From the IMG/VR virus record IMGVR_UViG_3300044998_000299, positions 1 to 46,462 of that record: 46,462 nt of DNA, one strand, 5' to 3'. This DNA is from a virus. Positions 6,797 to 37,248 of this stretch are shown here, in pieces (position 1 is the stretch's first letter; the number at the start of each line of letters is the position of its first letter). Made by a program: the position numbers and the translations under genes. The notes below the pieces were generated by a model. The model saw only the letters and a list, made by a program, of their open reading frames with translations. It was not told the origin of the DNA and made no database searches.

Positions 6797-7018
6797 TCAG
6801 GGCTTGTGCGGCAAATTCAGCGCCACGGGAGGCGCGATCCCGACCGACCAGGCGGCTTCCAGCATCTCCGCGCAGACAGAAGCATAAGGCCAGTCCCGAT
6901 ACACAAGCCGCTCGACCGGCTGCGATTCGAGGACGGCGACATCGCGACCGTGGCCCCATCCAACGAAATAGCCGGCAGACAGGGCCAAGACGAACGCCGC
7001 GACACTATATCTATTCAC
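6797..7018 (-). CDS. 73-residue membrane-anchored protein
   Basis: Starts at GTG 7018, overlapping the end of the giant gene by 8 bases. The N-terminus is a single hydrophobic helix (YSVAAFVLALSAGYFVGWG), either a membrane anchor or an uncleaved signal. About 50 soluble residues follow, with one Cys (Cys47). No lipobox is evident. It sits between the giant polyvalent protein and the tailspike. It could be a spanin-like or small virion membrane protein; no family is recognised. Confidence 0.6.
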   Translation of the reverse strand: MNRYSVAAFVLALSAGYFVGWGHGRDVAVLESQPVERLVYRDWPYASVCAEMLEAAWSVGIAPPVALNLPHKP

Positions 7019-10000
7019 CTTGGCGCCCCATGACGGCGATATACTTCCGGTTGAAGTCCAAGAATACCTTGCTTTCATCGCGCGCCGCAAGCGCCCCGAC
7101 CTTGGCGGGGTTCCACTCACCTCTGCGGGCCCGCTCTCGCTCCGCCTTGAGCCAGTCGTCGTACAGGCCCGCCAGAGCGGCGGTTTTGGGCGGAACCGGC
7201 TGCCCTGCCGCCTTATATGCCTTGAGATCGGCCTGCGCGTTCTTCACCTCAGCCCCAAAGCGGTAGTAGCGGTCCCGGTCCTGCCACTCGCCCACGGGGG
7301 AGGACAGGTTGCGCAGGAAAGGCACGTTGCGCCGCTCGATGCTCTCGAAATCGCCCTGCATTACCTTTACCACGATGTCCGCGCTGCGCCCCCAGAAGGC
7401 GCCCGCACTGCCCACAACGAAGCTGGCAAGGTGATCCAGCGTCTCCGGGCTGATGTCCACGGCGCCGGATTCGCGGAAGTCTCCCCCGGTCAGGCTGTTC
7501 AGGGTTTGCGCCACCCACTTCGACACCTCCGTTGCGCTTCGGAAGTGCACAAAGGCATCGGGCTCGGTCTGGTTGCCGTAGTTCTGCGGATAGATCGGAA
7601 CGCCCCGCCAGTCCTTGTTTTCGGCCATCTCGACCAGAGGGTCGGCGATGAACGGCGACACCATCTGCGCCGGGGTCGCCGCGCTTATCGGGCTAAAGGC
7701 ACCAAAAATTGCGGCGACAACATCGGCGAACGCTTTATCGGCAGGCTTCACGCCGCGCATGACCTTGCCTATCTGCTGCCCGGCATAGGGGAACACGTTG
7801 TAGCCATAGGGCATCGGGATCGCTGCCGGGTTGTCGCCGGTGCCCCACAACACGAGGTGGAGGTTTCGCTCGTTGCGCCAGTTCGGCACCTTGTCATACA
7901 GAAGTTCGCCGTTGTCATCCTCCTCGGAAAGCGATGCGTTGATCAGGTCCAGCACCGCACCGGCCGCGACGGCAGTCAGGGCCATCAGCGCAACCCTGCG
8001 GCTGGAAATGGCCTTGAGCGTGCGCGCCGTGCCCTGGATCGCCGCATTGAAGAACGGGTAGAGCGCGTTCATCGTGCTGCCGACCTCGCCGCGCCGGTTG
8101 AAGTTGACCGTCAGCTCTTTGGCCAGAAACGCAGCCTTTTCGACATCCCACCCTGCGCGACGGGCCTCGACAAAGGCGGCCAGACGGATCGCGTTGTCAA
8201 CGGCAAGGTTGGTCCGTTCGATGAAGGCCAGCGCAGCATTGTCACGAAACGAGAAGAAGGCCGATGGCGTCGTCATCACCTTGAGGGCGCGCACTGCCTT
8301 GTTGCCTCGCGCCAGCCTGATGCGCCTGTCCAGATCTTCGCGGCTCGCCTCGGGGTTTTCCATGGTCCAGAACCAGACCTGTGCGCCCGCCTGCTGGAAT
8401 TCGTTGTAGTAGCGCGACCACTCGGTATCGAACCTGTAGGTGCTGCCCCGCATGGCGCCCATGAAAGCCTTGCGCCAGTTCTTCGCCATGGCTTTCGCGA
8501 TGCGCGCCTTGTCGGCCTCGCCGAATGCCTGGATGTTGAACTGCGCGGTCTGGAAGTCGCGGAAGGCGTTGGTGATCATGAATTCCGGCGACAGCATGGT
8601 GCGCGTCATCGAAAAAAATCGCGAGAGCACGGACAGCACACGCACGACGCCCGACATCTGGTCTGCGCCCAGCGTGCCCGCCGCCTTGGCAATGCGCTCA
8701 TCCATGAACAGGATGCGGTGCTCTTCGCCGCCGATCTTCACGGCCATTTCGTTCGGCTCCATGACCATGGACACGGGGTCCTCAACCCGCGTTTCCACCA
8801 GCCCGGTGGACCGATTGAAATACCGCTTCTGCTTCGGCTTCTTTACCTCCCACAGCGCCTTGGACGGATGGTTCTTGGCCAACTCGTAGAGCGCCTGCGC
8901 GACCCGGTTCTTTTCCGCCCGGATCGCCACCTCCTGCGCCATGGAGATTGCGGATTGCAACGGGTTGAACGCCTCGGACCGGCGGCCGAGCGCGCGGCGC
9001 GTCTCCTGCCCGCGGACCGAGAAACGCCGCCCCAGGCGCACCCCGCCGAGGTCCATCAGGGCCTCGAAATGGTCGGTTTCCTCGAACCCCTTGAGCGGGA
9101 CATAGTGCCGGTATTGCTTGCGCCACAGGGTGGCCTGACTGTTGCTGATCAGCCCGGCATTCTCGCGCAGCGCGATCGACCATTCCCGCATCTCATCAAC
9201 CTTGCGGCCGATTTCGGCATAAGCCGCGGCATCCGGCGAGGCTGCAACCTGCGCAAGGATGGCTTGAGCGTCCGCGTTCAGCATCCCCGACCCGCCGTCA
9301 GGCATCTGCGGGTTGATCGAGGCGATGTAGGCGTTTCTCTCGATCGCGTGGCGGGCATAGAGGTATTCGCCGACCGTCTCCGATGTCATGCGGCCCTTGC
9401 TGGCCGCGATGATCTGGATGATCGGCTTGGTGAACCGCTCGTCGATGTCCAGAAGGTGCCGCCCGACCTTGCCCGAAAAGGTCGTCTCGGCCACATAGGC
9501 GTCTTGCTCCTTGGGCAGGGGCCGTCCGGTCTGCCGCATGACGGCTTCCTGCGCGCGCAGCACGGGAAGGAACCTGTCCTGTATGGTGAACCGCACCCGG
9601 TCCACGGCATCAGATGCCGCGCCCGGCAGATCGCGAAGCCGCTGCCAGATTGGAACGCCTGCCGCGGTCAGGGTTTCCCAGATGCGGCGGTCGGGAATGA
9701 ACGGGGTGGGTCCCATGGCGCTGTTGCGGTGCGCGCGGCCCTGCGGTGTCAGAGGCCGCACCGCGAGGGGCGGGCGCTGGAACATCATCCGGTCGCCGAA
9801 CAGGTTGCCTTGCCTCTCGGGCGCGGCCTTGCGGCGCTGTTCCGCCATCCCGGCCCGCGCGCCCGTGTTCCCGGCCCGACGCGCGCTGATTTCGCCCGCC
9901 AGCACCCGGCCGAAAATGTCCTCGGGGGTCTGGTAGCCGGCGCCCTGCAACACGTTGCGTAGCGCCCGCAGGACGCGGGCAATCTTGTTGAACGCCCGCA

Positions 10001-13000
10001 CAAGGATCGATCCCTTGGGCGACTCCTTCGCCGCCAGCGCCTCGCTGAACTCCTCCGCTATCGCTTCCTCGATCCGCTCGGCCTCGGTCAGGTCGGGATA
10101 CCGCTTGGCGATGTCGTGCTTGGCAAGCCACTTCCTTTCTGCGGCCAGCGTGAGCGCCTTCCATTCCTCCGGGGTGAACAGGTTCATCGCCCGCAGCGCG
10201 TGGATGACCTCATGGTGCAGGGTTTTCATCGGGTCCAGGCTGGCACCGATCAGGATCTCCATCTCCCCGTCGCCGGTGATGGCAAACGCCCCCTGCCAGC
10301 CCGGATCGCCTTCGCGCGCCGTCAGCCGCACACGTTTCAGGTCGAGCCGGTCCAGTTCGGCGCGCAGTTTGGGAAGCAGACTGCGGATTTCATCGGTCGC
10401 CGCAGCGGCCTCACGCACCATCTGCGCGCGCTGCTCCTTGGCGAGGATTTGGATGGCCGCCTCGTCATAGATGACGTAGTTGTACGAGCCCTCACCTGCG
10501 CTGCGGCTGGAACCGTCAAGGTAGCGGTGGCCGGGGATGCCGGCGGCACGCAGGGCCTCGGATGCATAGCGGCGGGCAACGGCCCTTGCCGCAGCCCGTT
10601 CCTGCGTGCTTCGCATGAACGCTGCATCGCCCATCGCATCGATGGTCAGTTGCTCGATCAGGTCTCGCCCGGTCGTCTTGTCCCACACGGATTCGTCAGG
10701 TGCGGCGTCCATCGATCGGATCGCTGCCTTTACCGCTTCCGGTTGCTTGGAAAGAGGGGCGTCCCAATCCAGAAGCCTGTCTTGGTCTGGAATATCAACC
10801 GTGTACACGCGGCCCGGATTTTTCTTGGTCACGCGCTCGGACAGCCAGTCGATCGCGGCGATGCGTGCCGCGCGCTCGGCCATATCGAATGTTATCCCGT
10901 CTTGTTCGGCGCGCTCGTAAGCCGTCACCTCAGCGTCCCGATAGGCGCGCAGGCGCTCTTGCACGTTATCCCCGGGCGCGGCCAAAATCCTGTCGCGCAA
11001 GTCGCCGATCAATCGGCGCAGCGAATACGGAAACAGTGGAGCCCCGCCTCTCCAGGCCTCGGCAGAAACTTCGACGGGCTTTGATGGCGTCTTGTCGGCA
11101 AGATATTCGTTTGTCCGCGCATTGGTTTCTACGGATAGCGGCTCATAGAGGAAGGACGGAATGTCCTCACCGTCGATCTGCAGGGAAGGCCGGGACAGCC
11201 TGTCGCGATACCATTCCGAAACCGAGCGCTTGCCCGCGAAATAGAGCCCCCAGCCATAGGTTTGCGCGCCTTCGCCGGTGCCGATGGCCGCCAGGCTGAA
11301 CCGATCGAAGTCGTGCGGCGTGCCGTGATAGGCGGTTTCCTCCATCCCCGCCACAGTCGGCTTGGTGATGTCGGCGATGAACGCCTGCCGTGCGGCCTCG
11401 CTCTTGAACTGAAAGCCGGGTTTTGCGCCGTTGCCGCTAAAGGACGAATACCAGCCGCCATGCTGCTTCGCGACCGCCAGAACGGCGTTATAGACATCGC
11501 GCTCCACCCGTTTCGTGAAGGCCGCGACGAAAAGCGGTTGGCCGGTTTTGCCGTGCGTAGCCTTTTCCAGCCTGAATTGGACATAGCCGCCCACAGGCGG
11601 GCCGGGCCGCTGGACGGGTGCAGGCGTGCTCGCGTCCTGCCCCTCGGCCTCCAATTCCTCGATTACATCCTGTTTCGGGTCTGGGCGGCGGGGCACGTCA
11701 TAGCGTTCCAGCCGGTCGAAGAAGTCGGTGATCGTGCTGGCGCCCGTGAAGTCGATCCGCTTCGTGCCGCCGTGACGGCTGCCGAACATGGCCCGTTCGC
11801 TGGCGTCAGGGATCTTGTCCAGGATCACCACGCGCGACATTATGCCCGTTCCCGCGCGCTCGAAGGTCACGGCCGGCAGGCTGATGTCTGCCGTCCAGTT
11901 GAAGTCCTTGGCGTCGTCGCTGTTCCACCAGGCATCAAACCGCTTGTCTGCACTGTTGCCAGACGGGATCAACGCTACAAGGCGTCCACCGGGGCGCAGA
12001 TGCTTGGCCGCCTTGGCAAGGTGATCCATGGCCGTCTTGCCGCCTGACCCGAAGGGCGGGTTCATCACGACCACATGGTACTTGTTGCTGATATGGTGCT
12101 GCTCGAAGGTGGTGGCCGCAAGGTTCGCCCGCGGCGCGCGCAGAAGCGCCGTGCTGCCCAGATCGTCGGACGGCTCAACGATCGTCACAGCCGCGTCGTC
12201 TGGCATGAACCGGGCAATGGCGCCGTCGCCCGCCGAAGGTTCCAGCACGCGCTCGTTTGCGCGGATGCCAGCCCATTCCACCATTTTCAGGCCAAGCGGT
12301 TCCGGGGTAGGGTAGAAATCCAGACCCTCGCGCTGATCGCGGCGCCCGAGCATCTTGGCTCGGGCGAAGTAATAGCTGATGGCTTTCTGCCAGGGTGTCG
12401 TTACGTTTCTGGCCCGGTCCTTGTCCTTGCCGCCCTTTCCATCTGCGTCCGAAGGATCGAACGCCTCTGCGTCCATGTAAGCATCCACGAATGCGTCGGT
12501 GATTGCTCTGGCCTCGTTGCCAAGCGCCAGGTTCTCGACGGTGCCAGACCGTTCCGCGATGCGCTGCGCGAAGGCGATGCGCTCCCATGTGGTGCCGATG
12601 GTGTAGTAGCGGAACGCGGCGTTGGTCTTGGTTCCGACACGCAGAATCCGGCCTTCTTGCTGCAACGTCGTCGTCGGCTTCGTCGGCATGCCAAGGTTGA
12701 TCATCACGCGCGGGTGGGTGCCTGTCACATCGTGCATGGACACGCCGGCACCGCCTGCGTCTGCCTGCACGATCAGCACATCCAAGCCGCTGTTGTCCGT
12801 GTTGAACGCGGCAAGCTGTGCATCACGGTCTTTCTTGGTCAGCCCGGAGAACACGCCGGCGCGTTCGCCGAACGCCGCTTTCAGGCCCACCGCAGCGGCG
12901 GGGTATCCCGTGAAGTCCAGTTTGTCCCAGCCGGGGTTCTTTTCGCTCAGATCAGCGAGGGCTTTCAGCGCGTTGTCGTCACCCAGAAGGCTCAGATCGC

Positions 13001-16000
13001 GAAGTGGTGCGAAGGGGTTGAACCCGCCGCCCTTGTTGAAGTCGTGAAACACAACGACCTTGCGGCCCATCGCCAGATGCTTCTGGATGTCGGAAACCGC
13101 AGCCTTGGCCTTTATCGCCTCAAGCAATTGCATCCGGGCCAGATAGCCGAATTTCGACCGCATCAGGCTGTTCAGGGTGCGATAGCCGTCCTTCAAAACA
13201 GGGTCGGCGCTGTTTTTGCCCTCGCTCAGGGTTTTCAGGATCGCGTCGATTTCCGTGCCGATAGCATCGGCCACGATCACAAAGCGACGGTCATAGTCCA
13301 CATCGACCTGCAGGGACCGTCCCGACAGAACGCCCTCACGTTTCAGCTTCTCGTGGAATTCGCGCTCGAACACGGCCGAATCGACGGCATGTTCCGGCTT
13401 GGTCAGCTTGTGATACCGAATCCGGTAGCCGAAGTTCTGCACCATGAAGATGGTGCGGCCGTCCTGATTGCTGAGCCCCACCCTCCCGTCATCGGGATAC
13501 TTGAACAGATAGCCCTCGGCATAGTCGATGCTCTTGTCGTAGGCAAAGGGAGTGGCAGACAGGAACAGCACCTTGCTGCGGGGCTTCTGCGCCCAAGCCT
13601 GAATTTCGCGGTCCTCGCGTTCCTTGAGGCGGCGATAGAAGGCGGTTTTCTGGTCGCCGTCCTTCATGCTCTCGTACTTCGCCCAATCCTCGCTGTGGAT
13701 CATGCGAGACTTGCGCCAAAGATCCTCGGGGCGGTGGGTGATCGCGCGCAGGGTGTGCAGCGTCGAGGTGGGCTCGCCGTCCTTGTTCGAGGACAGCTTA
13801 TGCGCTTCGTCCACCACGACCATATCCCACTCGCGGGACGCCAGCGCATTGTTTGCGCCCGCATTCTCGGGCGTCGTGTAAACCACCCCTTCGCCGGCGT
13901 CCGTGGTGTTGGCCAGCCTGGATGACGGCACACCCAAAGCGTCGAGGGTGCGCGCCCAACTGCCATGCGTGGCGTCAGGCGCGATGATCAGGATGTTCTT
14001 CTTGCCCTGCTGATAGAACCGCTTGATCAGACCGCCGCCGCTGTAGGTCTTCCCGGTGCCCGTGCCGTTGGTCAGCATGAAGCCGTGACCATCGGGCTTG
14101 GCGAACCGGGTTTCGATCTTGAACACATCGTCGCGCTGTTCCGGCAGGAGCTCAGGAACGGTCGCGTCGATGTTCGCCCGGTCGCCGGGAATGATGCGGG
14201 GCGCAGTCTTCGGCTTTGCCGGCGCCGCATGGTTTTCGATAAACCAGTCCACCGCCTGATCCACAGTGTCCAGGCCGTCAACAGATCGAGGCGAACCGTT
14301 CAGGATTACGAACCATTTCTTGCTGCGTATCGCTTGGTCGATGATGCCGCCTTTCGCCGGGTCGGGGTTGGTCAGCATCCCGTTCACGGCCGTCCAGCCG
14401 GGGACCAGAGCATTCAGCCGGTCTAGCGCGCTTTGCTCCGGTTCAAGCGTCGGGTTCATGTTGATCCGGCCCGCGCGCAGATCGGCGAGAAACGCGGTCA
14501 GATAAGGCGCCAGTTTCACCACCTCGGCCCGCGTCATGCCCGCGTCCCGCAGCGGCAGGATGATCGAGGCGAACAACTGGCGGTCGGTCGCCTGCTTGAT
14601 GTTCACCCCATCAAGCGCGTCGATGAAGATGGATTGCAGCGCCTCGGCCTTGCGCGGGTCGATCGGGTTGTCCGCGTCCTGGCGCATGATGTAGGGGCTG
14701 CTGGCGTCCCAAGTTCCGCGGTTGAAATCGGAATCCGTGCGGCGCCGCTCCGGGCCTGCCACAAAGTCCAGCGTATCCTCTTTCAGGATGGCCCGGATCG
14801 CAGCGAGTTGCTGCGCTGGAGTCAGCTTGGCGGGGGCACCAGAAGCATTGCCCGCAGAGTCCGCACCTCGTCCGGTGTCAGCGGATGATCCCCGACCGCC
14901 ACCGCCAGCGCGTCCTCCACGCTCTCCACGGGCGGAAGGCTGCCGATCGGCCCCGTCTTGTCCGTCAGCGCCCGGATTGCTTCCTGCTCCCACAGAAGCG
15001 GCATCGCCACCAGGTAGGCCGCCGCCAGCACCGGGCTGCCCGTCTCCTGCTTGACGCGCTCGATTTCCGCCGCGATTGCCGCGTCCAGTTCGTCCTGTGG
15101 CAGCGGGAACATCTGTTCCGCCCATGCGGTCCGAAGCAGCCCCGTCTCGGCTACCGCCTGCCAGATTGTTGCCGGCGCCTGATACATCGCTCTCACCCCC
15201 GAAAATGTCGTCCAGCGCGCCATCAAGCGCATCGTTGCCGGTCTTGGCCGGACCCTTCGCGGGCAGCGGCCCCTTCTGGATCAGGGCAGGGTCTTCACCT
15301 CGATGCCCCCGCTTTCCGTTGCCAATTCCAGCGCCCGCTCCATCTGCGCTAGTTCCGTTCTGACTGCCTGCGAATCCGGCATCTGCCGCAACTGCTTGAT
15401 CCTGCTGATAAGCGCGTATCGCGGCGACATCGAGTCCAAGCCGTCCAAGCCGATCATCGGGAATGGCCCCGGCGACTTCTTGGATGATGCTCTCAAGGTC
15501 TGCTTCGCCATCGGTGCCCTCCAAGGCTTTGGCGCGGATGTCGCCGGATACCGAAAGGATACCCAGCCGATCATACACAAGGTTGATGATTGCGTCGAAT
15601 GACCCGTTCAGACGGTCTCTTTTGGCTTCTTCGCGGGCAATACCCTCGGCGTCGTCGTAACGCACCGGGATCATGCGCGCTTGAAGAATACTCATCAGTT
15701 TGCGATTGGCGGCGTTATGCAGGCTGTCGAAGGCACTCGTGCCTGCGGGCGGGGCAGGCAGTACCAGATTGCCGGCCATCGGGCCGCGTTCGACCTCGTA
15801 ACGCATGCCATTGTGCGCCATGACCGCGAACCCTTGCCACTTGAGGCGCAAGAAAGACCGAATGTCGGCATGCGAGGCGCCGCGGCTGCTCGGGTGATTG
15901 TGCGTCAGGTAATGGACTTCACCAGCGATGGACATGCGCCAGATATAACTGGGGAAGCTAACGGCGTCGCGCTTGCCGGATGCGATGGCCACAGGGCGGC

Positions 16001-19000
16001 CCTGATCGTCAAGAAGGACGACAAATTCGATCTTGGTCGCCTTGCCGCGCTCCAAAACCCAGGCATCGGCAATCGCTTTCCGGGGGCCAAGGCCATCGGC
16101 GGCGGCCAGTTGGTCGGCCAATGCGCGCCCCTCGGGCGAACGCGACAGGTCAACGAACCCTTTGATTTCTACCGGGTCGGTGCCTCTGTACTTTTCGCGC
16201 AAGGTGTTGATGCGGTCGAGAAAGTCAGCGCCGGTTTCGCGCGGGGGCTTTGCGGGCTCGGGGGCGTTTGCCGCCTCCCCCTTCGGCGGTGCAAACAACT
16301 CCTGCTGCGAGTCGAACAATGGTCCTGCATCCCCGGTGTTCCCGCCCGGCTTGCGGATCTTCGACTGCTTGGCGCGCACTTCTGCCTCAGCCTCGGCGCG
16401 CACCCGATCAGGGCTCTTGCCGGTCTGCGGCACGTCGAACGGGTCGGCGGGAGGCGGCGCAGTCTGCCCGGTCATTGCCGCCAGAATGTCGGCTTGCGGA
16501 TCGCGCGGGGGCGAGGACGGGGCGCCGAAGAGATCGCCGTCTGCGGCGTCCTCGTTGCGGCCGGAGCCTACGGCTTTCGGTTCAGGTTCCGGCTGACGTT
16601 GCGGCTGAGACGAATGCCCTCCTCGATCGCCGCTCGGGCGTTCGCTGCCGCGCGCTCCCAGTTCACGTTCGACGGCATCGCGGAACTGCTGGGTTGCGCT
16701 GACGAGCGTTGCGCCGCCTTTGAGGGCGCGGGCTGCTGCTGTGAGGGCTTCACTGATCGCTCCCTTGGTATTGGCTTCGCGTTGCAGATAGTCGGCGATC
16801 ATGGAGGCCTTGTCCACGAAGGCGCGATTGCGTTCGCCATCGAGCCGGTTCCCGGCCGCTTCCAGCCGCTTGGCATTGACCAGCACGTTTTTGAAAGCGT
16901 TCTTTTCCTCGCGCGCCATCTTTATGGCGGCCTCGATGATCCTGGCTCGTTCCAGATAGAGGTTCTGGGTGTCGGCCTCGGGGCCGAAAAGACTGTCCTG
17001 TGTGTTGGTGACGGTATCCGCCGCTGCCTGCCTGGCCACCTGTTCCGCCTGGAAAGCCGTGATCGGGCGGTCCTTCTGCAGCCGGCTCAGAAGCGCGAGA
17101 ATGTTGGCCTGTGCCGCCTTGTCCGTTACGACACGTCCCACGATCCCGCCGTCGCGTTCGCTGGCCACACCGTTGACGACCATGCCGAACGCCTGATCGG
17201 ACAGGTTCTTCATGCCTGCAGCATCGCGCACAATGGAAGAATTCGGCGGCAGGTCCAGTTGCGCCGGGGTCTTGTCTGTGCTGCGCAGCACCTTTGCCGC
17301 ATCCAGCGCGGTGCCCGATCCTTCGGCGATGTTCTTGAGCGCGGCGGTCACGCGCGCTTCCTCGGGCGTCACACCGTCCACCTGCCGCAGGATCATGGCA
17401 AGCATCTGGATCGGCTTGCCCTCACGCGCCAGCCGCTTGGCCAGAGCCAGGCGCTGGTGCCCGTCAGCGATGACGCGGCGGCCATCGGCGTATTCATAGA
17501 CGATCACCGTACCTGCGCGCTCGGGCCGCCACTCGGTCACGCCGCGCAGCCGGTCGGTAACGCCCTCGGCATCCCCGCCCGCCTTGTATTGCATCACGCT
17601 CGGTTCGGTCTGGATGCGCTGCACGCCTGCAGCATCGATGAACTCGAAGTTGCTGGGCTGGTTCGGCACCGTGGCGGGCGGCACTCTGCCGCTTTGGGCC
17701 TCGACCGCATCGGCCTGCGGCGCCCGGCCTGCCGTCAGTGCCGCGTCCGTGTCGGCGGCGCTTCCTGCATAAGCATCAGCTTGAGCACTGCCGGCAACAG
17801 GGCGGAATCCTTGTCCACCGTCCCGCCCTTCCAGAGGAGGTTGCGCAGTTCCATCGCCGCCTGCGGCGTCACCTCCCCTGATCGTTCCAGCATTTGCAGC
17901 GCCAATCGCGCCGGAAGTCTGCGAGGGTTGCGCATCGGTCGCCTCCCGATCGGGGGCCAGCGGGAAAACCTGGCCTGTGGTCTTGTCCAGCACCACCTGA
18001 CCGCCCGTCGCCCGCCAGTCGCGGCCCTGACCTTCGGACTCGTCAAGCACCTCGAAGCGATCAGGATCGGCGTCCACCTCAGCGCGGGTCATCGGACGGC
18101 CCGCTTGGAACCGCGCGGGTTGTGCCGGCGGCTGCGTTGCGGGAGCGGGCTGGCCCGACATGGCCGCCCTGATCTGCGCCAGAGTGTCGGCGGGCTGCGG
18201 CGGCGCCGGAAGCGGAGCGGGCTGGCCAATAGGGCTGGATGGCGCGGCCTGCACGCGGGGTGCCGCAAGCACAGCGGGGTCTGGGGCAGGCGGCCGCATC
18301 GAAGCGGCGATCTGGTCGATCACGGGCGGCGGTGGCGCGGCGGGGGGTAGTGTTCCTGCACCCGCATAGGGCGCCGCATTGGGGTCTGCTGGTGTTCCGC
18401 GCCTGGCCCTGCGGTCGGCGACGGTTTGAGCCGCCCTGTCTGCAACAGTGGCAGTGCCGCCCATCAGCGCACCCATGACACCGCCGGCCGCAGCAGATTT
18501 CTGCATCTCCGCGACCGCTTCACCCCAAGTCATGTCCTCTTTGAGGTAGCCAAGATCGACCAACTGCTGCAAAGCAGAGGTAAGGGCTTCGGACGCTGCT
18601 TCGGTTGCGGCGCCGCCGGCGATCTTCGCCACCGCTCCGGTGCCGCGCTTCAGGATCACGGCCAGCGGAACGTACTGGGGAATGGCTTCCGCCAGCGCGT
18701 AAAGGTTTGCGGCAGTGACAGCTTTTTCGCTGTCGTATCCTTCGGCGCGTTTGTCCGCATAGGTCGAACCGCGTGAATACGCCCCGAGATAGGCCATCAT
18801 CGGGATCGGGTTGCGCCTCACAATGAACGCTGCAAGGCCGGGCGCCATGTCGCCGAAAGACGCGATGCCGGACACGAGCGCTTCGGGCAGACCCGGCGCG
18901 GGTTTCACGGGCGTCATGGATGCGTCGAGTTGGTCGATGCGATCTTGTGTTGCGCGAGCGATACGCCGCGCCGCCATGATCGCCGCCTGCTCTCGTTCGA

Positions 19001-19739
19001 TCGCCTCCGCCTGCACATCAGGATCGACGCTGGCCAGCGCCGTTTCGGCCCTCCGCACAATGTCGGTATCGAAGGTGCCAGGCCAAAGACCGCGATTTGC
19101 ACGCTGCTGGGCTATAGCGTCCTGCGGGTTCTTGAGCTCGCCGATCCGCTGCAGGCTGCGCACGATGTCCCGCTCGGCATCGGCAAGGCGATTCCCGAGA
19201 AAGCCACGCTCAACACGCTTGGGGGTGTCTGCCAGAGACGAAAGGATCGCCTCCATCGTGGGCGTGTAATCGGGGCCAGGCGCGAGCCGGGGCGGCGGCG
19301 CTTGCATGTTGCGCACGACATCGCCGTAAGGCATGTCGCCGTAAGGCATATCGGGCGGGGCCTCGGGCGTGACTTCGGGCGCGCGCCGGGGCAATATCCT
19401 TTGCGCGTTCTGCACGACATCGCCATAAGGCATGTCAGCCTGCGGCACGGCAGGGAAAGAGCCCGGCCGAGGGAATTCTTGGGGCGCGATCAAGGGCCGC
19501 ATGCCCTGTGGCGCACCCATCAGGGAAGCGATGAACGGCAAGAACCCGCCCTGGGCCGCATTGTCCAGCGGCACCCGGGGCGTTGGCGGATCGACGGGAG
19601 CCGCCAACCCACGCGACATGGCGGCATCTCGCTTCGACCTTGCCTCACGAGCCTGACTGGCCAGTAATACCGCCGCAGCCGTGTCGCCCCTTTGGTGGGC
19701 CGCACGGAGCGCAGCCATCAGTTCTTCATAGGATGCCAT
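7011..19739 (-). CDS. Giant polyvalent protein, 4242 residues: ParB-like, JAB, SF2 helicase, adenine methylase, ART, zincin and LPD domains
   Basis: One uninterrupted frame (start ATG 19739 behind GAGGGG) fills 27% of the window. Approximate domains are: N-terminal MPYGD repeats (100-145) and a hydrophobic Ala/Gly region (345-400); ParB-like nuclease with VIADGHQRLALA (759); JAB/RadC-like with HNHPSS (1280); SF2 helicase with GTGTGKT (1893), DEAH (1976), LSATPF (2061) and QQEGRILRVG (2361); N6-adenine methylase with EPSAGDGA (2502) and NPPF (2560); ADP-ribosyltransferase with AYHGTP and YGWGLYFA (2806-2830); zinc protease HEVIHAL (3176); then a roughly 1000-residue helical region resembling large polyvalent-protein-associated domains, with a hydrophobic helix near 3920. 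Iyer, Aravind and colleagues defined polyvalent proteins with such domains in phages and conjugative elements; the helicase-methylase pair recalls P1 DarB. Ejection with the DNA, with anti-restriction and host-modifying roles, is inferred. Confidence 0.88.
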   Translation of the reverse strand: MASYEELMAALRAAHQRGDTAAAVLLASQAREARSKRDAAMSRGLAAPVDPPTPRVPLDNAAQGGFLPFIASLMGAPQGMRPLIAPQEFPRPGSFPAVPQADMPYGDVVQNAQRILPRRAPEVTPEAPPDMPYGDMPYGDVVRNMQAPPPRLAPGPDYTPTMEAILSSLADTPKRVERGFLGNRLADAERDIVRSLQRIGELKNPQDAIAQQRANRGLWPGTFDTDIVRRAETALASVDPDVQAEAIEREQAAIMAARRIARATQDRIDQLDASMTPVKPAPGLPEALVSGIASFGDMAPGLAAFIVRRNPIPMMAYLGAYSRGSTYADKRAEGYDSEKAVTAANLYALAEAIPQYVPLAVILKRGTGAVAKIAGGAATEAASEALTSALQQLVDLGYLKEDMTWGEAVAEMQKSAAAGGVMGALMGGTATVADRAAQTVADRRARRGTPADPNAAPYAGAGTLPPAAPPPPVIDQIAASMRPPAPDPAVLAAPRVQAAPSSPIGQPAPLPAPPQPADTLAQIRAAMSGQPAPATQPPAQPARFQAGRPMTRAEVDADPDRFEVLDESEGQGRDWRATGGQVVLDKTTGQVFPLAPDREATDAQPSQTSGAIGAANAGTIRGGDAAGGDGTAQPPLEGRDGGQGFRPVAGSAQADAYAGSAADTDAALTAGRAPQADAVEAQSGRVPPATVPNQPSNFEFIDAAGVQRIQTEPSVMQYKAGGDAEGVTDRLRGVTEWRPERAGTVIVYEYADGRRVIADGHQRLALAKRLAREGKPIQMLAMILRQVDGVTPEEARVTAALKNIAEGSGTALDAAKVLRSTDKTPAQLDLPPNSSIVRDAAGMKNLSDQAFGMVVNGVASERDGGIVGRVVTDKAAQANILALLSRLQKDRPITAFQAEQVARQAAADTVTNTQDSLFGPEADTQNLYLERARIIEAAIKMAREEKNAFKNVLVNAKRLEAAGNRLDGERNRAFVDKASMIADYLQREANTKGAISEALTAAARALKGGATLVSATQQFRDAVERELGARGSERPSGDRGGHSSQPQRQPEPEPKAVGSGRNEDAADGDLFGAPSSPPRDPQADILAAMTGQTAPPPADPFDVPQTGKSPDRVRAEAEAEVRAKQSKIRKPGGNTGDAGPLFDSQQELFAPPKGEAANAPEPAKPPRETGADFLDRINTLREKYRGTDPVEIKGFVDLSRSPEGRALADQLAAADGLGPRKAIADAWVLERGKATKIEFVVLLDDQGRPVAIASGKRDAVSFPSYIWRMSIAGEVHYLTHNHPSSRGASHADIRSFLRLKWQGFAVMAHNGMRYEVERGPMAGNLVLPAPPAGTSAFDSLHNAANRKLMSILQARMIPVRYDDAEGIAREEAKRDRLNGSFDAIINLVYDRLGILSVSGDIRAKALEGTDGEADLESIIQEVAGAIPDDRLGRLGLDVAAIRAYQQDQAVAADAGFAGSQNGTSADGAGAGIGNGKRGHRGEDPALIQKGPLPAKGPAKTGNDALDGALDDIFGGESDVSGAGNNLAGGSRDGAASDRMGGTDVPAATGRTGRGNRGGNRARQAGDGQPGAGGGLPGGDAASVGAGSNPGADGQDGADRQPSARGERGGRAGGGGRGSSADTGRGADSAGNASGAPAKLTPAQQLAAIRAILKEDTLDFVAGPERRRTDSDFNRGTWDASSPYIMRQDADNPIDPRKAEALQSIFIDALDGVNIKQATDRQLFASIILPLRDAGMTRAEVVKLAPYLTAFLADLRAGRINMNPTLEPEQSALDRLNALVPGWTAVNGMLTNPDPAKGGIIDQAIRSKKWFVILNGSPRSVDGLDTVDQAVDWFIENHAAPAKPKTAPRIIPGDRANIDATVPELLPEQRDDVFKIETRFAKPDGHGFMLTNGTGTGKTYSGGGLIKRFYQQGKKNILIIAPDATHGSWARTLDALGVPSSRLANTTDAGEGVVYTTPENAGANNALASREWDMVVVDEAHKLSSNKDGEPTSTLHTLRAITHRPEDLWRKSRMIHSEDWAKYESMKDGDQKTAFYRRLKEREDREIQAWAQKPRSKVLFLSATPFAYDKSIDYAEGYLFKYPDDGRVGLSNQDGRTIFMVQNFGYRIRYHKLTKPEHAVDSAVFEREFHEKLKREGVLSGRSLQVDVDYDRRFVIVADAIGTEIDAILKTLSEGKNSADPVLKDGYRTLNSLMRSKFGYLARMQLLEAIKAKAAVSDIQKHLAMGRKVVVFHDFNKGGGFNPFAPLRDLSLLGDDNALKALADLSEKNPGWDKLDFTGYPAAAVGLKAAFGERAGVFSGLTKKDRDAQLAAFNTDNSGLDVLIVQADAGGAGVSMHDVTGTHPRVMINLGMPTKPTTTLQQEGRILRVGTKTNAAFRYYTIGTTWERIAFAQRIAERSGTVENLALGNEARAITDAFVDAYMDAEAFDPSDADGKGGKDKDRARNVTTPWQKAISYYFARAKMLGRRDQREGLDFYPTPEPLGLKMVEWAGIRANERVLEPSAGDGAIARFMPDDAAVTIVEPSDDLGSTALLRAPRANLAATTFEQHHISNKYHVVVMNPPFGSGGKTAMDHLAKAAKHLRPGGRLVALIPSGNSADKRFDAWWNSDDAKDFNWTADISLPAVTFERAGTGIMSRVVILDKIPDASERAMFGSRHGGTKRIDFTGASTITDFFDRLERYDVPRRPDPKQDVIEELEAEGQDASTPAPVQRPGPPVGGYVQFRLEKATHGKTGQPLFVAAFTKRVERDVYNAVLAVAKQHGGWYSSFSGNGAKPGFQFKSEAARQAFIADITKPTVAGMEETAYHGTPHDFDRFSLAAIGTGEGAQTYGWGLYFAGKRSVSEWYRDRLSRPSLQIDGEDIPSFLYEPLSVETNARTNEYLADKTPSKPVEVSAEAWRGGAPLFPYSLRRLIGDLRDRILAAPGDNVQERLRAYRDAEVTAYERAEQDGITFDMAERAARIAAIDWLSERVTKKNPGRVYTVDIPDQDRLLDWDAPLSKQPEAVKAAIRSMDAAPDESVWDKTTGRDLIEQLTIDAMGDAAFMRSTQERAAARAVARRYASEALRAAGIPGHRYLDGSSRSAGEGSYNYVIYDEAAIQILAKEQRAQMVREAAAATDEIRSLLPKLRAELDRLDLKRVRLTAREGDPGWQGAFAITGDGEMEILIGASLDPMKTLHHEVIHALRAMNLFTPEEWKALTLAAERKWLAKHDIAKRYPDLTEAERIEEAIAEEFSEALAAKESPKGSILVRAFNKIARVLRALRNVLQGAGYQTPEDIFGRVLAGEISARRAGNTGARAGMAEQRRKAAPERQGNLFGDRMMFQRPPLAVRPLTPQGRAHRNSAMGPTPFIPDRRIWETLTAAGVPIWQRLRDLPGAASDAVDRVRFTIQDRFLPVLRAQEAVMRQTGRPLPKEQDAYVAETTFSGKVGRHLLDIDERFTKPIIQIIAASKGRMTSETVGEYLYARHAIERNAYIASINPQMPDGGSGMLNADAQAILAQVAASPDAAAYAEIGRKVDEMREWSIALRENAGLISNSQATLWRKQYRHYVPLKGFEETDHFEALMDLGGVRLGRRFSVRGQETRRALGRRSEAFNPLQSAISMAQEVAIRAEKNRVAQALYELAKNHPSKALWEVKKPKQKRYFNRSTGLVETRVEDPVSMVMEPNEMAVKIGGEEHRILFMDERIAKAAGTLGADQMSGVVRVLSVLSRFFSMTRTMLSPEFMITNAFRDFQTAQFNIQAFGEADKARIAKAMAKNWRKAFMGAMRGSTYRFDTEWSRYYNEFQQAGAQVWFWTMENPEASREDLDRRIRLARGNKAVRALKVMTTPSAFFSFRDNAALAFIERTNLAVDNAIRLAAFVEARRAGWDVEKAAFLAKELTVNFNRRGEVGSTMNALYPFFNAAIQGTARTLKAISSRRVALMALTAVAAGAVLDLINASLSEEDDNGELLYDKVPNWRNERNLHLVLWGTGDNPAAIPMPYGYNVFPYAGQQIGKVMRGVKPADKAFADVVAAIFGAFSPISAATPAQMVSPFIADPLVEMAENKDWRGVPIYPQNYGNQTEPDAFVHFRSATEVSKWVAQTLNSLTGGDFRESGAVDISPETLDHLASFVVGSAGAFWGRSADIVVKVMQGDFESIERRNVPFLRNLSSPVGEWQDRDRYYRFGAEVKNAQADLKAYKAAGQPVPPKTAALAGLYDDWLKAERERARRGEWNPAKVGALAARDESKVFLDFNRKYIAVMGRQGE
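19315..19440 (-). repeat. MPYGD coding repeats in the giant gene
   Basis: A 15-base unit encoding MPYGD occurs twice in tandem at about 19317-19350 and once more near 19421-19438, the outer copies continuing as VV-[QR]-N. They lie in the Pro-rich linker before the first helical region of the giant protein. They look like short linear binding motifs or a spacer. Confidence 0.7.
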
Positions 19740-20422: not shown

Positions 20423-21399
20423 CAGTCCACCTGCGGAAGTTGCGAGTAATCAAGGAAAAACCAGCGCCCGATGCGCTGCACGGCGGCGGGCATGGCGCGC
20501 CTGACATCCTGCACCATGTACCCGCGGCGAACCGTTCCGGGGCGATCCCAGATGTAGCGCCATGCGTAGAGCGGGAACCCGTTGCGATACCCGATCAACC
20601 GGACATCACGCTTGAACACCCGGTCGGACTTCATCAGCATGGCTGCGCCAAGGCCGCCCAGCGTGCTGGCCATAGACGCGCGGTTGGCTTGGTTCTGGTT
20701 ATGCTGGGCCATCTGCTGCTGATACTGCTGCCCGACGAGCCCGGAGTAATTGACGCCGGGCGCGCTGCCCGAGGGGACCGCGCTGGGCGGGTTGTAGCTG
20801 CCCCCCATGGCCGCGACAAGTTCTGCGATGGCCCCCTGCCGGGCGGCCGCATCCAGCGAAAACAGACGCGATTGCTCCTGTCCTGCCGCAATGTCGGCAT
20901 CCATTGCCAGCCGGGCCAGCGTGTCCTGGGTGTTGCGCTGCTGCTCTGCCATGGCTTCCTTGAACGCATCCGAGCCGACAGGCAGGCCGCGGGCCTGCAG
21001 GTTGGTGAGAAGCCGCGAATTCGACCTGTCGATGCTGGGCTGCATCATTGACAGCGTGCGATCATAGATCGACTGCGCCACCGTGCTCCGATCCTGCGCG
21101 CGGGGTGCATTGGGCATGTTGGAAATGTTGTCCGAAATGATCCGGTTCGTCAGATCGACAGAGGCGGGTTCAAGCGCGGTCCTGATCTGCCGTTCCCACG
21201 GGCTTTCGACCCTGCTGACTGCCGATTGCGAGCCTTGCGGCGCCACACCTTGCTTGAATTGGCCCGTGGCCGGGTCGGTGTAGCCATAGCGAATGCCGGC
21301 CCCCGAGGGCGAATAGGTGTCCAGCCGGTTGAACTGGGCCTCTGCGCTAGCGGTCTTGTATGGATCAGGCGGTGCCGGTGCCGTGCTGCCCTTGCCCAT
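20422..21399 (-). CDS. Internal/tail protein with C-terminal S74-like intramolecular chaperone domain, 325 residues
   Basis: The N-terminal 250 residues are helical and rich in Gln, Asn and Ala (for example QQYQQQMAQHNQNQANRAS), typical of podovirus internal proteins. Residues from about 258 carry a peptidase S74-like signature: SDRVFKRDV keeps the Ser and Lys of the SD-x-x-x-K-x-D autoprocessing motif, followed by YAWRYIW and GYMVQDVRRAMPAAV. S74 domains assist trimerisation of fibres and then often cleave themselves off. Start ATG 21399 has AGGTGG upstream and overlaps the GNAT gene by 35 bases. Whether this copy cleaves is not known. Confidence 0.7.
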   Translation of the reverse strand: MGKGSTAPAPPDPYKTASAEAQFNRLDTYSPSGAGIRYGYTDPATGQFKQGVAPQGSQSAVSRVESPWERQIRTALEPASVDLTNRIISDNISNMPNAPRAQDRSTVAQSIYDRTLSMMQPSIDRSNSRLLTNLQARGLPVGSDAFKEAMAEQQRNTQDTLARLAMDADIAAGQEQSRLFSLDAAARQGAIAELVAAMGGSYNPPSAVPSGSAPGVNYSGLVGQQYQQQMAQHNQNQANRASMASTLGGLGAAMLMKSDRVFKRDVRLIGYRNGFPLYAWRYIWDRPGTVRRGYMVQDVRRAMPAAVQRIGRWFFLDYSQLPQVD

Positions 21400-21820
21400 G
21401 TCGAAGCCACCTGCATTGTTCGCGATACATCTGCAAAACTACCAGCGGGCCGCCGCCATGTGCGGCAAACGGGATCAGCGCGACGTGGTTGAACCCCAGC
21501 TTGGTGGCAAGGTTCAGGCTGGACAGGTTGTCCATCGGCACCAGCACCGTAACCGCCTCCACGCCAAGCTGCAGAAAGGGGTATGCGAAGATGTGGAACA
21601 AGGTGTGTCGGTCGGCCCATCCGCTGCCCGGCTCGGCCGCAATGGATGCCTCGATGTTGACCCCGTTGCAGCGTTCATAGGTGACGCCAGCCACCACCTT
21701 GTTGCCCTTGATCACGCCCAGCGCCGCCACGCCGGGGGTTTGAACATAGCCCGGTATGCGCTGGCCGACCCATTCGGCGATCAGCCTGTCAGCGCCATAG
21801 ACAACATTGCCTATTCTCAC
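21365..21820 (-). CDS. GNAT-family acetyltransferase-like virion-module protein, 151 residues
   Basis: Start taken at GTG 21820, which overlaps the previous stop as GTGA; an open frame to 21859 is also possible. The N-acetyltransferase fold is seen in VAALGVIKGNKVVAGVTY (beta2-beta4), HIFAYPFLQLGVEAVTVLV (helix 3/beta5) and the late motif NLATKLGFNHVALIP (helix 4, beta6). GNAT genes at this place, between hub and internal proteins, are common in podoviruses. They may be structural or may modify host proteins. The acetyl-CoA pyrophosphate loop is not a canonical Q/RxxGxG/A, so activity is uncertain. Confidence 0.75.
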   Translation of the reverse strand: MRIGNVVYGADRLIAEWVGQRIPGYVQTPGVAALGVIKGNKVVAGVTYERCNGVNIEASIAAEPGSGWADRHTLFHIFAYPFLQLGVEAVTVLVPMDNLSSLNLATKLGFNHVALIPFAAHGGGPLVVLQMYREQCRWLRHGQGQHGTGTA

Positions 21821-23277
21821 AATCCGAGGGCGGCCGTCAGTCCCGTGATTTCCGCCCATCGCGCTGTAACCTCCAACGTGATCTGGAACCGCTTGCCCGA
21901 GGCATCCGTGGGGATCTTGTCGGACAGCGAAAGTCGTGTGCCGCTCCCTTCTTCGGGCGTCAGACGAATGATCTGCTGCGCCTCCGCGATGTCGGCGTCG
22001 GTGTCGTTGTTGTCCGACAAGACCACTACCCTGACACGAAGGGGGCCTTCCGAAATGATGACAGGCTCAATGTAGTCAACAGAAACATTCCTGCCGACCT
22101 CAAACCAGGACGACACCCAGCGAGCGGTGATCAATTCATCGGTGCCGGTGTGCCGGAGCTTTCCGAGGCGGCCGTCTGTTGCCGTGATCTGGGGTGTGCC
22201 TGCCAGATTGTGCCAGTCCAGCGCGGGCAAATCCATGGTCGCCCATGAGCGGCCCTCCATGTAATAGACGAACTGGCGGGCCGTGCCATTTGCGACACGG
22301 TTGATGACCACCATGGACCCGTCGCGCGCCGTGAACATCTGCCAGTCGGCAGGGCCCGCCTCGACGAGCGCGGCAATTTCGTCGGCGATCGGCTGCGAGA
22401 TGTCGGAGACCAGCGCCAGCACTGACTCCCGAATCGCCTGACTTACGCTGATCGGGCCTTGTGCGGTCAGCATCCACGCATCGGACCCGACTTGCGTGAA
22501 TGCCCTGCGCCCAATGATGATGGCGCCATCGACACGCCCGACCAGACGCCAGTCATTCGGGTCGGTCGGATCGAACCCCTCGTAGAGGATCATCTGGCCA
22601 GTGGTCGTGACGATGCACAAGACATCGTTCATGCCGTGTCCGGCGTCGATCGTAAGCGATGTCATCGCCTGGATCGATCCGGTGATGTTGCCCAGCCTGC
22701 CCAGAGGGAAGCGCGACATCGGGCCGGTGACGGCGCCGACATCGCCGACGAGAAATTCCAGCGGTCCCCCGGTTTTCCAGAGGTATATCCTGTCGTGGTG
22801 GCTGATGATGCCGTCACACTCCGCAGGGTCGGGACCTGCGGCGGCGGTAAAGCCAGCCGAGGTGAACGCGGTTCCGTCAAATCGCACGGGCAGACCAAGG
22901 CCGTCCGCAATCAGGATGTTGCCGGAGATTGCGGCCCATGATGCTTGCCCTCCGAATGGCCTGGTGATGCTGAGCGCGCCTGCGGTCGCCCCGGTGGGGG
23001 TGACAGTGATGTAGAGGCTGGCCCCGCCGAACTCGAACGGGATGCGCTGGATCACGGCAGAGGGCGCAGATACCCATTCGACTCCCGGCCGGGTCACCAT
23101 GGAGACGCCATTGGACCGCAGGTTCAGCAATTCGGAGGCAAAGAGGTTGCTGACACGCGCACTGCGCGCCTTGGCATAGATGCCGCGAAGCGGAAGGGGA
23201 ATCGGAACCTCTCGCGAGGATGACTGCCCGGCCCGCTTCCTGCGCTGCGCTCGCACTGCCAGCCTGTGACGCATCAT
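21817..23277 (-). CDS. P22 gp10-like tail hub / DNA-stabilisation protein, 486 residues
   Basis: Beta-rich protein that starts RHRLAVRAQRRKR and continues ASELLNLRSNGVSMVTRPGVEW, typical of short-tail hub proteins that open with an assignment of array parameters. Repeating four-stranded blade-like units (for example GNILIADGLGLPVRFDG, DVLCIVTTTGQMILYEG, SDAWMLTAQGPISVSQ) suggest a beta-propeller, as in the P22 gp10 family that plugs and extends the portal-adaptor channel. ATG 23277 overlaps the collar gene stop (ATGA). The family match is by pattern, not by a search. Confidence 0.7.
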   Translation of the reverse strand: MMRHRLAVRAQRRKRAGQSSSREVPIPLPLRGIYAKARSARVSNLFASELLNLRSNGVSMVTRPGVEWVSAPSAVIQRIPFEFGGASLYITVTPTGATAGALSITRPFGGQASWAAISGNILIADGLGLPVRFDGTAFTSAGFTAAAGPDPAECDGIISHHDRIYLWKTGGPLEFLVGDVGAVTGPMSRFPLGRLGNITGSIQAMTSLTIDAGHGMNDVLCIVTTTGQMILYEGFDPTDPNDWRLVGRVDGAIIIGRRAFTQVGSDAWMLTAQGPISVSQAIRESVLALVSDISQPIADEIAALVEAGPADWQMFTARDGSMVVINRVANGTARQFVYYMEGRSWATMDLPALDWHNLAGTPQITATDGRLGKLRHTGTDELITARWVSSWFEVGRNVSVDYIEPVIISEGPLRVRVVVLSDNNDTDADIAEAQQIIRLTPEEGSGTRLSLSDKIPTDASGKRFQITLEVTARWAEITGLTAALGL

Positions 23278-34780: not shown

Positions 34781-35698
34781 CTATTGAGGCCGCACCTCCC
34801 GCAGCAGCAGCGCCGTGGCGCGCAGGCCGTGGCGCTGGTGGTAGTCGTTCCAGTCACCCGCTTCGGGTGGCATTGTCCACTGGCGGCCCGAGGCACGGGC
34901 GTAGAATTCTCCGGTCCCGAGGCCGTTCAAGTGCTTGATCGGTTTGTCGTGGTCAGCCGCGACGATTGCGCCGCGGATCGAGGCGGCGACGCGGGCGGCG
35001 TTGTTGGCGGCGAAGGCGCAGAGGACGGTTGCCGACCGTCCCAGGAATTGCAGCGCGGCACGGACGCTGAGCGCAGTGGCGATTCCCTCGCACACCCAGG
35101 TCTCGTGCCCTGTGCTGATCCTGTAGGAAGAGCCGCTCATCTGGCCACGCAGTATGTTCCGCTTGGCGCCATCCTGCCCGATGATCTGGACGGTGGCAAG
35201 GGTGTTTTCGATCCACCCCGGCACGATCAGCCACGGCCCCGGCCCGTCGGGCAGCGCGCGGGTGATCGCACGCCCGAGCTCGTGCTGCGGGATCAGAGGC
35301 CGCAGGTCGTCGATTACCAGCCCGCGCGTGTCGGCAAAGCCTTTCGCGGCCAGATACAGGTGTTGATCGTGGCGGCAGGCGCGGACGATAGCGGTGCAGA
35401 TGCGGGCGACCTCGGCGTGCTCATCAGCAGCGCGGCGTTCGGCCTTCGGATCGCGACGAACCAGAGTCGCGGGCATTGGGCTGCACGCATCGCCCACGCG
35501 GAACGTGTGGCTCTGCCCCGTCACCCAGTTCCAAGCGACGCCGCCCGTGCCGTCTGGCCAGACCAGGACGCGGCCGGAGCCGTTAGTCCGCGGTTTGCCC
35601 TCGACCGGGCACGGCACCCAGCGGCCGGGGGTGACGCGCGGCGGGGGCGAAATCCCGACCGCGTGGCAAGCCTCCCGGATTGCGTCGTCGAGGGTCAC
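34781..35698 (-). CDS. TOPRIM-domain primase (phage TraC/P4-like), 305 residues
   Basis: Starts at GTG 35698, in a GTGA overlap with the helicase stop; the open frame upstream is a shadow of the helicase gene. The N-terminal part has the small fold seen in DnaG-like phage primases (GRWVPCPVEGKPRTNG). The TOPRIM signature is present: VCEGIATALSVRAAL supplies the catalytic Glu, and IVAADHD gives the DxD-type metal site. The conserved end EAGDWNDYHQRHGL is typical. It probably makes RNA primers with the adjacent helicase. There is no replicative polymerase gene in the window, so host polymerase use is likely. Confidence 0.85.
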   Translation of the reverse strand: MTLDDAIREACHAVGISPPPRVTPGRWVPCPVEGKPRTNGSGRVLVWPDGTGGVAWNWVTGQSHTFRVGDACSPMPATLVRRDPKAERRAADEHAEVARICTAIVRACRHDQHLYLAAKGFADTRGLVIDDLRPLIPQHELGRAITRALPDGPGPWLIVPGWIENTLATVQIIGQDGAKRNILRGQMSGSSYRISTGHETWVCEGIATALSVRAALQFLGRSATVLCAFAANNAARVAASIRGAIVAADHDKPIKHLNGLGTGEFYARASGRQWTMPPEAGDWNDYHQRHGLRATALLLREVRPQ

Positions 35699-37248
35699 GC
35701 TGCACTCCGTTGTTTGCGGAACCGGCGCACCTCGCGCTCGACCAGCGCCAGCGCGTCGCTGTCGGCGGCGCCGAGCACAGGTGCCTCGAACCAGCCGCGC
35801 GGGAGTTTCGCGCCGGGATAGATGCCCGCCCAGATACCGTAGGCCCAGCGCCGCGCCTTGTTCGGATCGCGCGCGCGGGAGAAAGCGTAGATCAGCGCTG
35901 CGTCCCAGATCGAGCGCGGATTGCCGAGGCACGGCGCCCGCAGTCCGTCGCGCGGGGTGAGCGCGTAGCGCGAGGCGTCGAACGCCTGCAGCGTGCCCGC
36001 CACGTTGACAATCCCGGATCGTGCCGGGCGCTCGTATCCGCACGCCAGACAGGTCGGCCCGCGCATGACGGCGCTGCACTCTGGGCAGGTAATTGACTCG
36101 CGGGTTTTCTTGTCGCGCGTGCGGGCCTTGGAGTCCTGCTTTTCGGCGGCGTCCAGTTCGCCCGCGCCGTTCTGCCAGATGTCGAACATCTCTCCGGCGA
36201 ACCGTTCGACGTTGCCGCTGTGGTCCAGCCACAATGCCTTTGATTTGCCCGGCGCGGACCGCATCACGCGACCGATTTCCTGCATGTGCCCGCTCAGGCT
36301 TTTGCGGTAGGGCCGACACGAAATGCCGACCAGGCAATCCGGCACGTCGAACCCTTTTGTCAGCACGCCGCACGATACCAGTCCGACGATCACGCTGTCG
36401 GGGCGCCGGAATTCGGCGATTTTGGCGGCGCGCTCCGCGTCGTTCCGGTCCAGATAGCTGATCTGCTGGAAATTGTAGCCCGCCGCCCGGAACTCGGCGC
36501 ACAGTGCGCGGCCGTGGGCCACGGTGGGCGAGAACACGATGGTCTTGACTGGCCCGCCGAAATGTTCGCGCGTTTTGCACTCCCATTCGCGCACCACGTC
36601 GCCGATGATCTTGATCCCGGCGGCGGTGGCGCTTTCGTCGCTGAACTCGCCGTCCCAGCCCACCGCCAACTCGGCGTCGTCCGGGGATTTGGCAACGTAG
36701 ATCGTCGGCTCGATCAGGTGGCCGTCCTCGATCAGCAGGCGGGTGGAGCGAACGTTGACGATCCCGTGCCAGTCGCGGGCCATTCCGCGCGTGAACGGTG
36801 TCGCAGTCAGGCCGATACAGATGGCGTCCGGGTGGCGGTCCATCAGATCGATGGTCGCCTTCATCCGGCAGTGCGCCTCGTCCACCACGATCAGCGATGG
36901 CGCGCGCGGCAGGATGCGGCGGGCGAGGGTTTGTGCGCTGCAGACCTGGACGTGCTCGCGCGGCTCCCAGCGCGGGTGATTGCCCTGAACGACGCCGTGC
37001 GGGATTCCGTAGCTGTCGAGCACGGCGCTGGTCTGATCGACGAGCGCCACGCGGTCCACGATGAAGAGGCTGTACGACCCTTTGCGTGCGGCCTCGGCCA
37101 GCAATTTCGACGCCAAGACCGTTTTGCCTGATCCTGTCGCGGCACACAGAATGAGCCGCCGTTTCCCATCCCTGATCTGCTCGCGCAGCGCCTCGATCGC
37201 GGCGGCCTGGTAGTCGCGCAGCTCGATCTGCCTTGTGGAGTTGAGCAT
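35695..37248 (-). CDS. SF2 DEAH-box helicase with zinc finger, 517 residues
   Basis: Starts at ATG 37248, sharing ATGA with the previous stop; upstream open sequence is a shadow. Helicase motifs are Walker A AATGSGKT (36-43), DEAH (123-126), TATPF (148-152) and a motif VI-like QEIGRVMR near 300. A zinc ribbon with CPEC and CLAC lies near residue 370. This design is common among SF2 helicases of temperate and virulent phages and serves replication or recombination. The primase is translated next and overlaps by 4 bases. Confidence 0.87.
   Translation of the reverse strand: MLNSTRQIELRDYQAAAIEALREQIRDGKRRLILCAATGSGKTVLASKLLAEAARKGSYSLFIVDRVALVDQTSAVLDSYGIPHGVVQGNHPRWEPREHVQVCSAQTLARRILPRAPSLIVVDEAHCRMKATIDLMDRHPDAICIGLTATPFTRGMARDWHGIVNVRSTRLLIEDGHLIEPTIYVAKSPDDAELAVGWDGEFSDESATAAGIKIIGDVVREWECKTREHFGGPVKTIVFSPTVAHGRALCAEFRAAGYNFQQISYLDRNDAERAAKIAEFRRPDSVIVGLVSCGVLTKGFDVPDCLVGISCRPYRKSLSGHMQEIGRVMRSAPGKSKALWLDHSGNVERFAGEMFDIWQNGAGELDAAEKQDSKARTRDKKTRESITCPECSAVMRGPTCLACGYERPARSGIVNVAGTLQAFDASRYALTPRDGLRAPCLGNPRSIWDAALIYAFSRARDPNKARRWAYGIWAGIYPGAKLPRGWFEAPVLGAADSDALALVEREVRRFRKQRSAA

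Follow-up and report, generated by a model that had tools for sequence, protein, structure and literature searches.

Which parts of a giant viral polypeptide that carries the motifs of six different activities belong together, and which are exchangeable? The question is raised by the IMG/VR virus record IMGVR_UViG_3300044998_000299, analysed here in its entire length of 46,462 bases (the window). Its minus strand contains a single uninterrupted open reading frame (ORF; P0001, 7011..19739), which starts with an ATG downstream of a purine-rich, Shine-Dalgarno-like stretch (GAGGGG) and encodes a protein of 4242 residues. A preliminary description, made from the letters alone, had ascribed to this protein ParB, JAB, helicase, adenine methylase, ART and zinc-protease domains and had emphasized their order and completeness, with ART and HEVIH standing together behind the methylase. 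The ORF is real and the motifs lie where they had been placed, the strand being now added; a chance origin of the frame and its motifs is precluded by near-full-length homologues such as ANH49087 of Ruegeria phage 45A6. As judged from sequence comparisons, the protein class is a known one, and the new feature is provided by the two junctions beside the zincin-like domain, which are variable cargo bays with ART as one of several interchangeable cartridges.

Cargo bays on both sides of the zincin

Relatives were drawn from IMG/VR and from genome contigs, and 13 non-redundant chains with helicase, methylase and zincin, plus the C-terminal modules where the contig was long enough, were compared. 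The spacing between helicase and methylase is rigid (70–78 aa, standard deviation (sd) 2 aa), as is that inside the C-terminal module (CT1-L38, 0–9 aa, sd 3 aa). The gap from the post-methylase segment to the zincin, termed bay 1, ranges from 16 to 806 aa across the relatives, and that from the zincin to the C-terminal module, termed bay 2, from 46 to 401 aa. The post-methylase segment (aa 2681–2801, 11337..11699; this and all following features of the giant gene are on the minus strand) is alignable in 10 sequences and forms the left wall of bay 1; its alignment holds up to FKSEAxRQAFxDDMxKP and diverges beyond. In the window, bay 1 (aa 2801–3105, 10425..11339) contains an ART of the ART-PolyVal type (PF18760, E 1.9e-4, sub-threshold), and bay 2 (aa 3286–3376, 9612..9884), which accommodates variable cargo in relatives, is empty and has an FQRP border peptide.

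The occupants change from chain to chain. Bay 1 is filled with ART in the window and in the relatives L002 and L118, with a second ART type in L076 and L112, with GNAT in 45A6, with LPD37 (285 bits) in L025 and with an unnamed domain carrying the motif IEEIQSD in L022, L024 and L035; it is empty in L036, L083 and L097. Bay 2 carries GNAT in L002, LPD3 in L022, ART in L035 and L112, MuF_C in L083, or is empty. Cargo is also found on either side: the GNAT domains in bay 1 of 45A6 and bay 2 of L002 are 70% identical, and the window-type ART precedes the zincin in some chains and follows it in others. On the scaffold tree of the 13 taxa the bay-1 label requires at least 8 changes, compared with a mean of 8.6 for shuffled labels, which were equally low in 80 of 200 trials; with this number of taxa the test is blind to weak inheritance, and the tree places two long branches together. 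The difference between the window and L025 is independent of these branches, L025 being the sister of the window (support 100/100) with LPD37 in place of its ART. Since the bay-1 content shifts like shuffled labels, the completeness of the domain set is incidental, and ART and HEVIH do not constitute the fixed set that had been described, ART being exchangeable and absent from some scaffold relatives.

The unnamed bay-1 insert (L022:12884-15304, L024:12815-15193, L035:7955-10003) is 680–806 aa long and carries the motif EEIQSDLASKWRE. It obtained no significant match to Pfam in the three chains, nor to NCBIfam for L022, and PHROGs matched only one of them, weakly; it is a candidate for a new domain.

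A border motif, [ILVM]P[LT]F[SQ]R, was counted 14 times in 49 giants against 0.03 expected. As a general cleavage signal it was rejected and is retained as a lead, since most of its occurrences come from a small number of distant relatives and it did not rank top in an unbiased, context-dereplicated count. In the giant ORFs of L061, L065, L078 and L079, [IV]P[LT]FSR is repeated between domains, up to four times per chain and far above chance; these repeats are possible processing sites or linker tags.

Domains of the giant protein

The Gly/Ala-rich hydrophobic N-terminal segment (aa 266–440, 18420..18944) has relatives by tblastn; its part from aa ~266 to 415 is common to the giant DarB-like proteins of the Pseudomonas phages Itty13 and Skulduggery, Vibrio phage VvAW1 and E. 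coli phage PTXU04. It possibly serves virion or membrane passage. The following ParB/Noc-like domain with its helix-turn-helix (HTH) motif (aa 690–1010, 16710..17672) was evaluated in an AlphaFold model of aa 674–1345, which was based on a 14-sequence alignment and reached pLDDT values of mostly 80–96 in the folded parts. Comparison with PDB structures revealed a match with Noc (7nfu) including the HTH (E 1.8e-5, probability 1.00, 218 columns), which upholds the ParB assignment. The classical ParB motif is GERR; in the giant protein, DGHQR at 759 stands instead. The same region (window 16710-17672) matches the C-terminal part of the portal family phrog_21 (E 5e-29), indicating that this domain occurs fused to portals in other phages.

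The JAB/JAMM metalloprotease-like domain (aa 1170–1345, 15705..16232) was assigned on the basis of motif and fold. It contains HNHP at 1280 within a pattern E..HNHP..S..D conserved in the aligned relatives, and its model matches P. furiosus JAMM1 with moderate significance (E 0.08, probability 1.00), so that the JAB proposal is likewise supported. Pfam matched neither the ParB nor the JAB domain, the latter in a search with ten sequences. The JAMM domain is preceded by a linker kept in relatives, KQSKxRKxGGNxGDAGPLFxxxxxLF (aa 1124–1149, 16293..16370). The L025 ORF holds this linker twice (aa ~1235 and ~3474), the second copy being located in bay 2; a recent recombination scar was considered and rejected, as only 61 of 135 nucleotides are identical in register and the duplication is therefore not recent. 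In the ParB-JAMM stretches of L002 (3023-5464) and L025 (2551-4893), unshared inserts of ~80-120 aa lie directly before the JAMM domain, which suggests that bays are not limited to the flanks of the zincin.

Helicase and adenine methylase were confirmed by profiles. The SF2 (SNF2-type) helicase/translocase (aa 1849–2369, 12633..14195) exceeds the Pfam cut-offs for ResIII and Helicase_C and shows GTGTGKT ending at 1898 (Walker A 1894), DEAH at 1977 and SATP at 2061. The gamma-class adenine methylase (aa 2440–2680, 11700..12422; motifs TP, EPSAGDG and NPPF) matches phrog_15406 (E 9e-43) and, just under the cut-off, Pfam MTS (21.6 bits); EPSAGDG and NPPF, the latter at 2560, are invariant in 10 sequences. 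The helicase precedes the methylase, as in many further phage giants, so this order represents a widespread variant and is not unique to the window phage. Elsewhere in the window, stand-alone genes for a helicase (35698-37803) and a DNA methylase (37508-38524) overlap each other, and 45A6 has separate SWI/SNF helicase and cytosine methylase genes as well.

The zincin-like metallopeptidase (aa 3106–3285, 9885..10424) is characterized by HEVIH at 3176 and a downstream IEEAIAEEF; HExxH and the downstream Glu are invariant in all 15 sequences aligned and are carried by predicted helices in a model of the ART-zincin region. For the ART, the motifs [YF]HG[TS] and GWG[LM]YF are conserved in six ART-insert sequences (YHGT at ~2804 and GWGLYF in the window), the assignment of the catalytic Asp being uncertain.

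The C-terminal module consists of a first part (aa 3377–3700, 8640..9611), shared with BcepIL02 gp70 (E 2.6e-37) and Stx and Vibrio podoviruses, and a second part (aa 3701–4186, 7182..8639; BcepIL02 gp70 E 4e-50), which includes LPD38 (aa 3948–4141; Pfam E 1.2e-41, above cut-off). The giants of Bcep22-like, Stx and Vibrio podoviruses thus share the module; one viral scan using a C-terminal piece turned up no relative.

Genome setting and known polyvalent proteins

Genes on the minus strand are arranged in the order terminase, portal, major capsid, tail and lysis genes, virion protein, giant gene and tail fibres. The giant gene is accordingly placed between virion/tail and tail-fibre genes, the usual location of genes for internal virion proteins (PMC10386132). 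The upstream virion structural protein (20425..21399, minus strand; phrog_6121) is 60% identical to the product of the syntenic gene of 45A6, a temperate podovirus of Rhodobacterales (PMC10386132), and the entire block from terminase to giant gene is syntenic with this phage at 36-71% identity. A separate acyl-CoA N-acyltransferase gene (21368-21859), which lies within the virion gene cluster a short way upstream of the giant gene, is also present in 45A6. The window phage, which is of a marine type, is probably a 45A6-like podovirus with a host in the Rhodobacterales. Jannaschia, Mameliella, Mesobacterium and Thiosulfatihalobacter genomes contain related segments, and of 395 genomes sampled from the Jannaschia family, 10 carry a related zincin segment. 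A nucleotide search against phage records gave no match, and a PDB sequence search returned nothing useful.

The 45A6 protein ANH49087 (3912 aa, annotated "hypothetical protein") shares gene position and scaffold with the window giant and is 54-55% identical over large conserved blocks, but it is 330 aa shorter and has GNAT instead of ART in bay 1. Both belong to phrog_10691, an uncharacterised family which covers the window giant nearly over its full length (2541 bits). The preliminary description had correctly named the class of polyvalent proteins, which likewise use zincin, ART, SNF2 ATPase, adenine methyltransferase (MTase), ParB and LPD38 (Iyer et al. 2017, PMC5512222); the window giant combines several unrelated activities in one chain, contains domains typical of the class and is located among virion genes, within a podovirus structural cluster. 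The combination is not unprecedented, as an Acetonema longum protein joins SNF2 ATPase, adenine MTase, zincin and ART (PMC5512222), and the architectures catalogued in the supplement to Iyer et al. may already include the scaffold. Two differences from their survey were found. RadC, of the JAB fold, was reported only from polyvalent proteins of conjugative elements and LPD38 only from the phage type (PMC5512222), whereas the window giant unites a JAMM domain with LPD38; as the JAMM domain has no Pfam RadC match, this comparison applies at the fold level. Moreover, the helicase was described as C-terminal of the MTase (PMC5512222), a rule followed by P1 DarB and BcepIL02 gp70 but not by the window giant. 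The Bcep22-like protein BcepIL02 gp70 (4667 aa) has a homologous C-terminal LPD38 module and, as JC1 gp69, is likewise placed after two virion genes; in contrast, it shows the MTase-helicase order and no significant match to the ParB or zincin profile of the window.

Proposed working and alternatives

Taken together, we consider it likely that the giant protein is a phage-type polyvalent protein whose constant scaffold is packaged, enters with the DNA and shields it, while the bay cargo modifies the host. The scaffold would comprise the hydrophobic N-terminal segment, the ParB/Noc-like and JAMM domains, the helicase-methylase pair, the zincin and the C-terminal LPD38 module. The protein would be loaded into the virion and enter the cell with the DNA; the ParB/Noc-like domain might mediate DNA loading, as its family suggests, and, acting on the phage DNA as it enters, would protect it from restriction together with the translocase-methylase part. 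The cargo of the two bays flanking the zincin, here ART in bay 1, would modify host targets, and the zincin between the bays would release or trim it. The protein is probably carried in the virion, since it shares a homologous C-terminal module with the Bcep22-like giants, of which JC1 gp69 (4515 aa) was identified by mass spectrometry, through 51 unique peptides, in virions purified on CsCl (PMC9144972); P1 DarB is packaged via an N-terminal signal (PMC9024508). Iyer et al. suggested that zincins process polyvalent proteins and cited the processing of P1 DdrB as a precedent (PMC5512222), and a zincin that is constant between two changing bays fits such a cargo release. A more specific scenario, which we put forward tentatively and below an even chance, is a virion-delivered cartridge carrier consisting of a constant chassis and two bays, into which host-modifying enzymes are swapped at fixed borders and from which the protease excises the loaded cartridge after injection.

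Several points weigh against this proposal. The packaging of the giant protein is deduced by analogy, and its C-terminal identity to the Bcep22-like giants is ca. 27%, the protein aligned being BcepIL02 gp70, with JC1 gp69 standing in as a member of the same group. Most relatives are metagenomic contigs. The ART-PolyVal score of 18.9 bits for the whole protein and 22.6 bits for the segment falls below the cut-off of 31.2, and the insert is therefore termed ART-like of that type rather than a secure member. Structure prediction, successful for ParB and JAMM, produced a poor model of the ART-zincin region (pLDDT 65) without a PDB match, which confirms neither fold; the zinc-protease assignment is thus backed by its invariant residues, the fold search being uninformative. 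Finally, zincin cleavage sites in the giant protein are putative, and the virion RNA polymerase of N4, although it contains a zincin, is packaged without being processed (Iyer et al., PMC5512222), for which reason we rate zincin processing at even odds at best.

The N4 case also favours the view, given as an alternative by Iyer et al. (PMC5512222), that the zincin is an effector against host proteins and the flanking variability reflects tolerant linkers, in keeping with the linkers around the JAMM domain, which also vary. We regard this as rather unlikely, given that effectors turn over whereas the zincin is constant between the bays in every full-scaffold relative. The position among tail and virion genes and the wide distribution of the N- and C-terminal modules, the parts most common among podoviruses, would also suit an ordinary large internal virion protein whose terminal modules form a DNA-ejection channel and whose enzyme domains are mostly unimportant passengers. 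Passengers would, however, lose their catalytic motifs, which methylase, JAMM and zincin retain across divergent relatives; this renders the explanation improbable.

Least probable is a true DarB orthologue, an antirestriction protein enlarged by a few domains, despite the helicase and adenine methylase within one giant virion-type protein and the annotation of relatives as "DarB-like". P1 DarB (2255 aa), a virion-packaged antirestriction protein (PMC9024508), also combines an adenine methylase with an SF2 helicase. In its family the methylase is N-terminal to the helicase and LPD36 is present; the window giant has the reversed order, no LPD36 found by Pfam and many further domains. Its helicase profile matches P1 DarB at E 0.02 or worse, which is not significant, and P1 DarB has no match to the C-terminal LPD38 module, no HExxH and no HNHP. 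P1 DarB, which the preliminary description had mentioned for comparison, is a functional analogue of the window giant, which is not itself a DarB. A virion-delivered, multi-effector role remains, by analogy with the packaged giants, the best reading of the protein.

The present analysis sorts the motifs of a giant phage protein into a chassis and exchangeable weapons, an anatomy that can be tested. Should the bays be genuine delivery slots, comparing their contents between close phages would be a direct route to host-modifying effectors, including the unnamed domain, and phage 45A6, the closest isolate, would provide a laboratory system for testing the zincin processing of polyvalent proteins that has been proposed since 2017.

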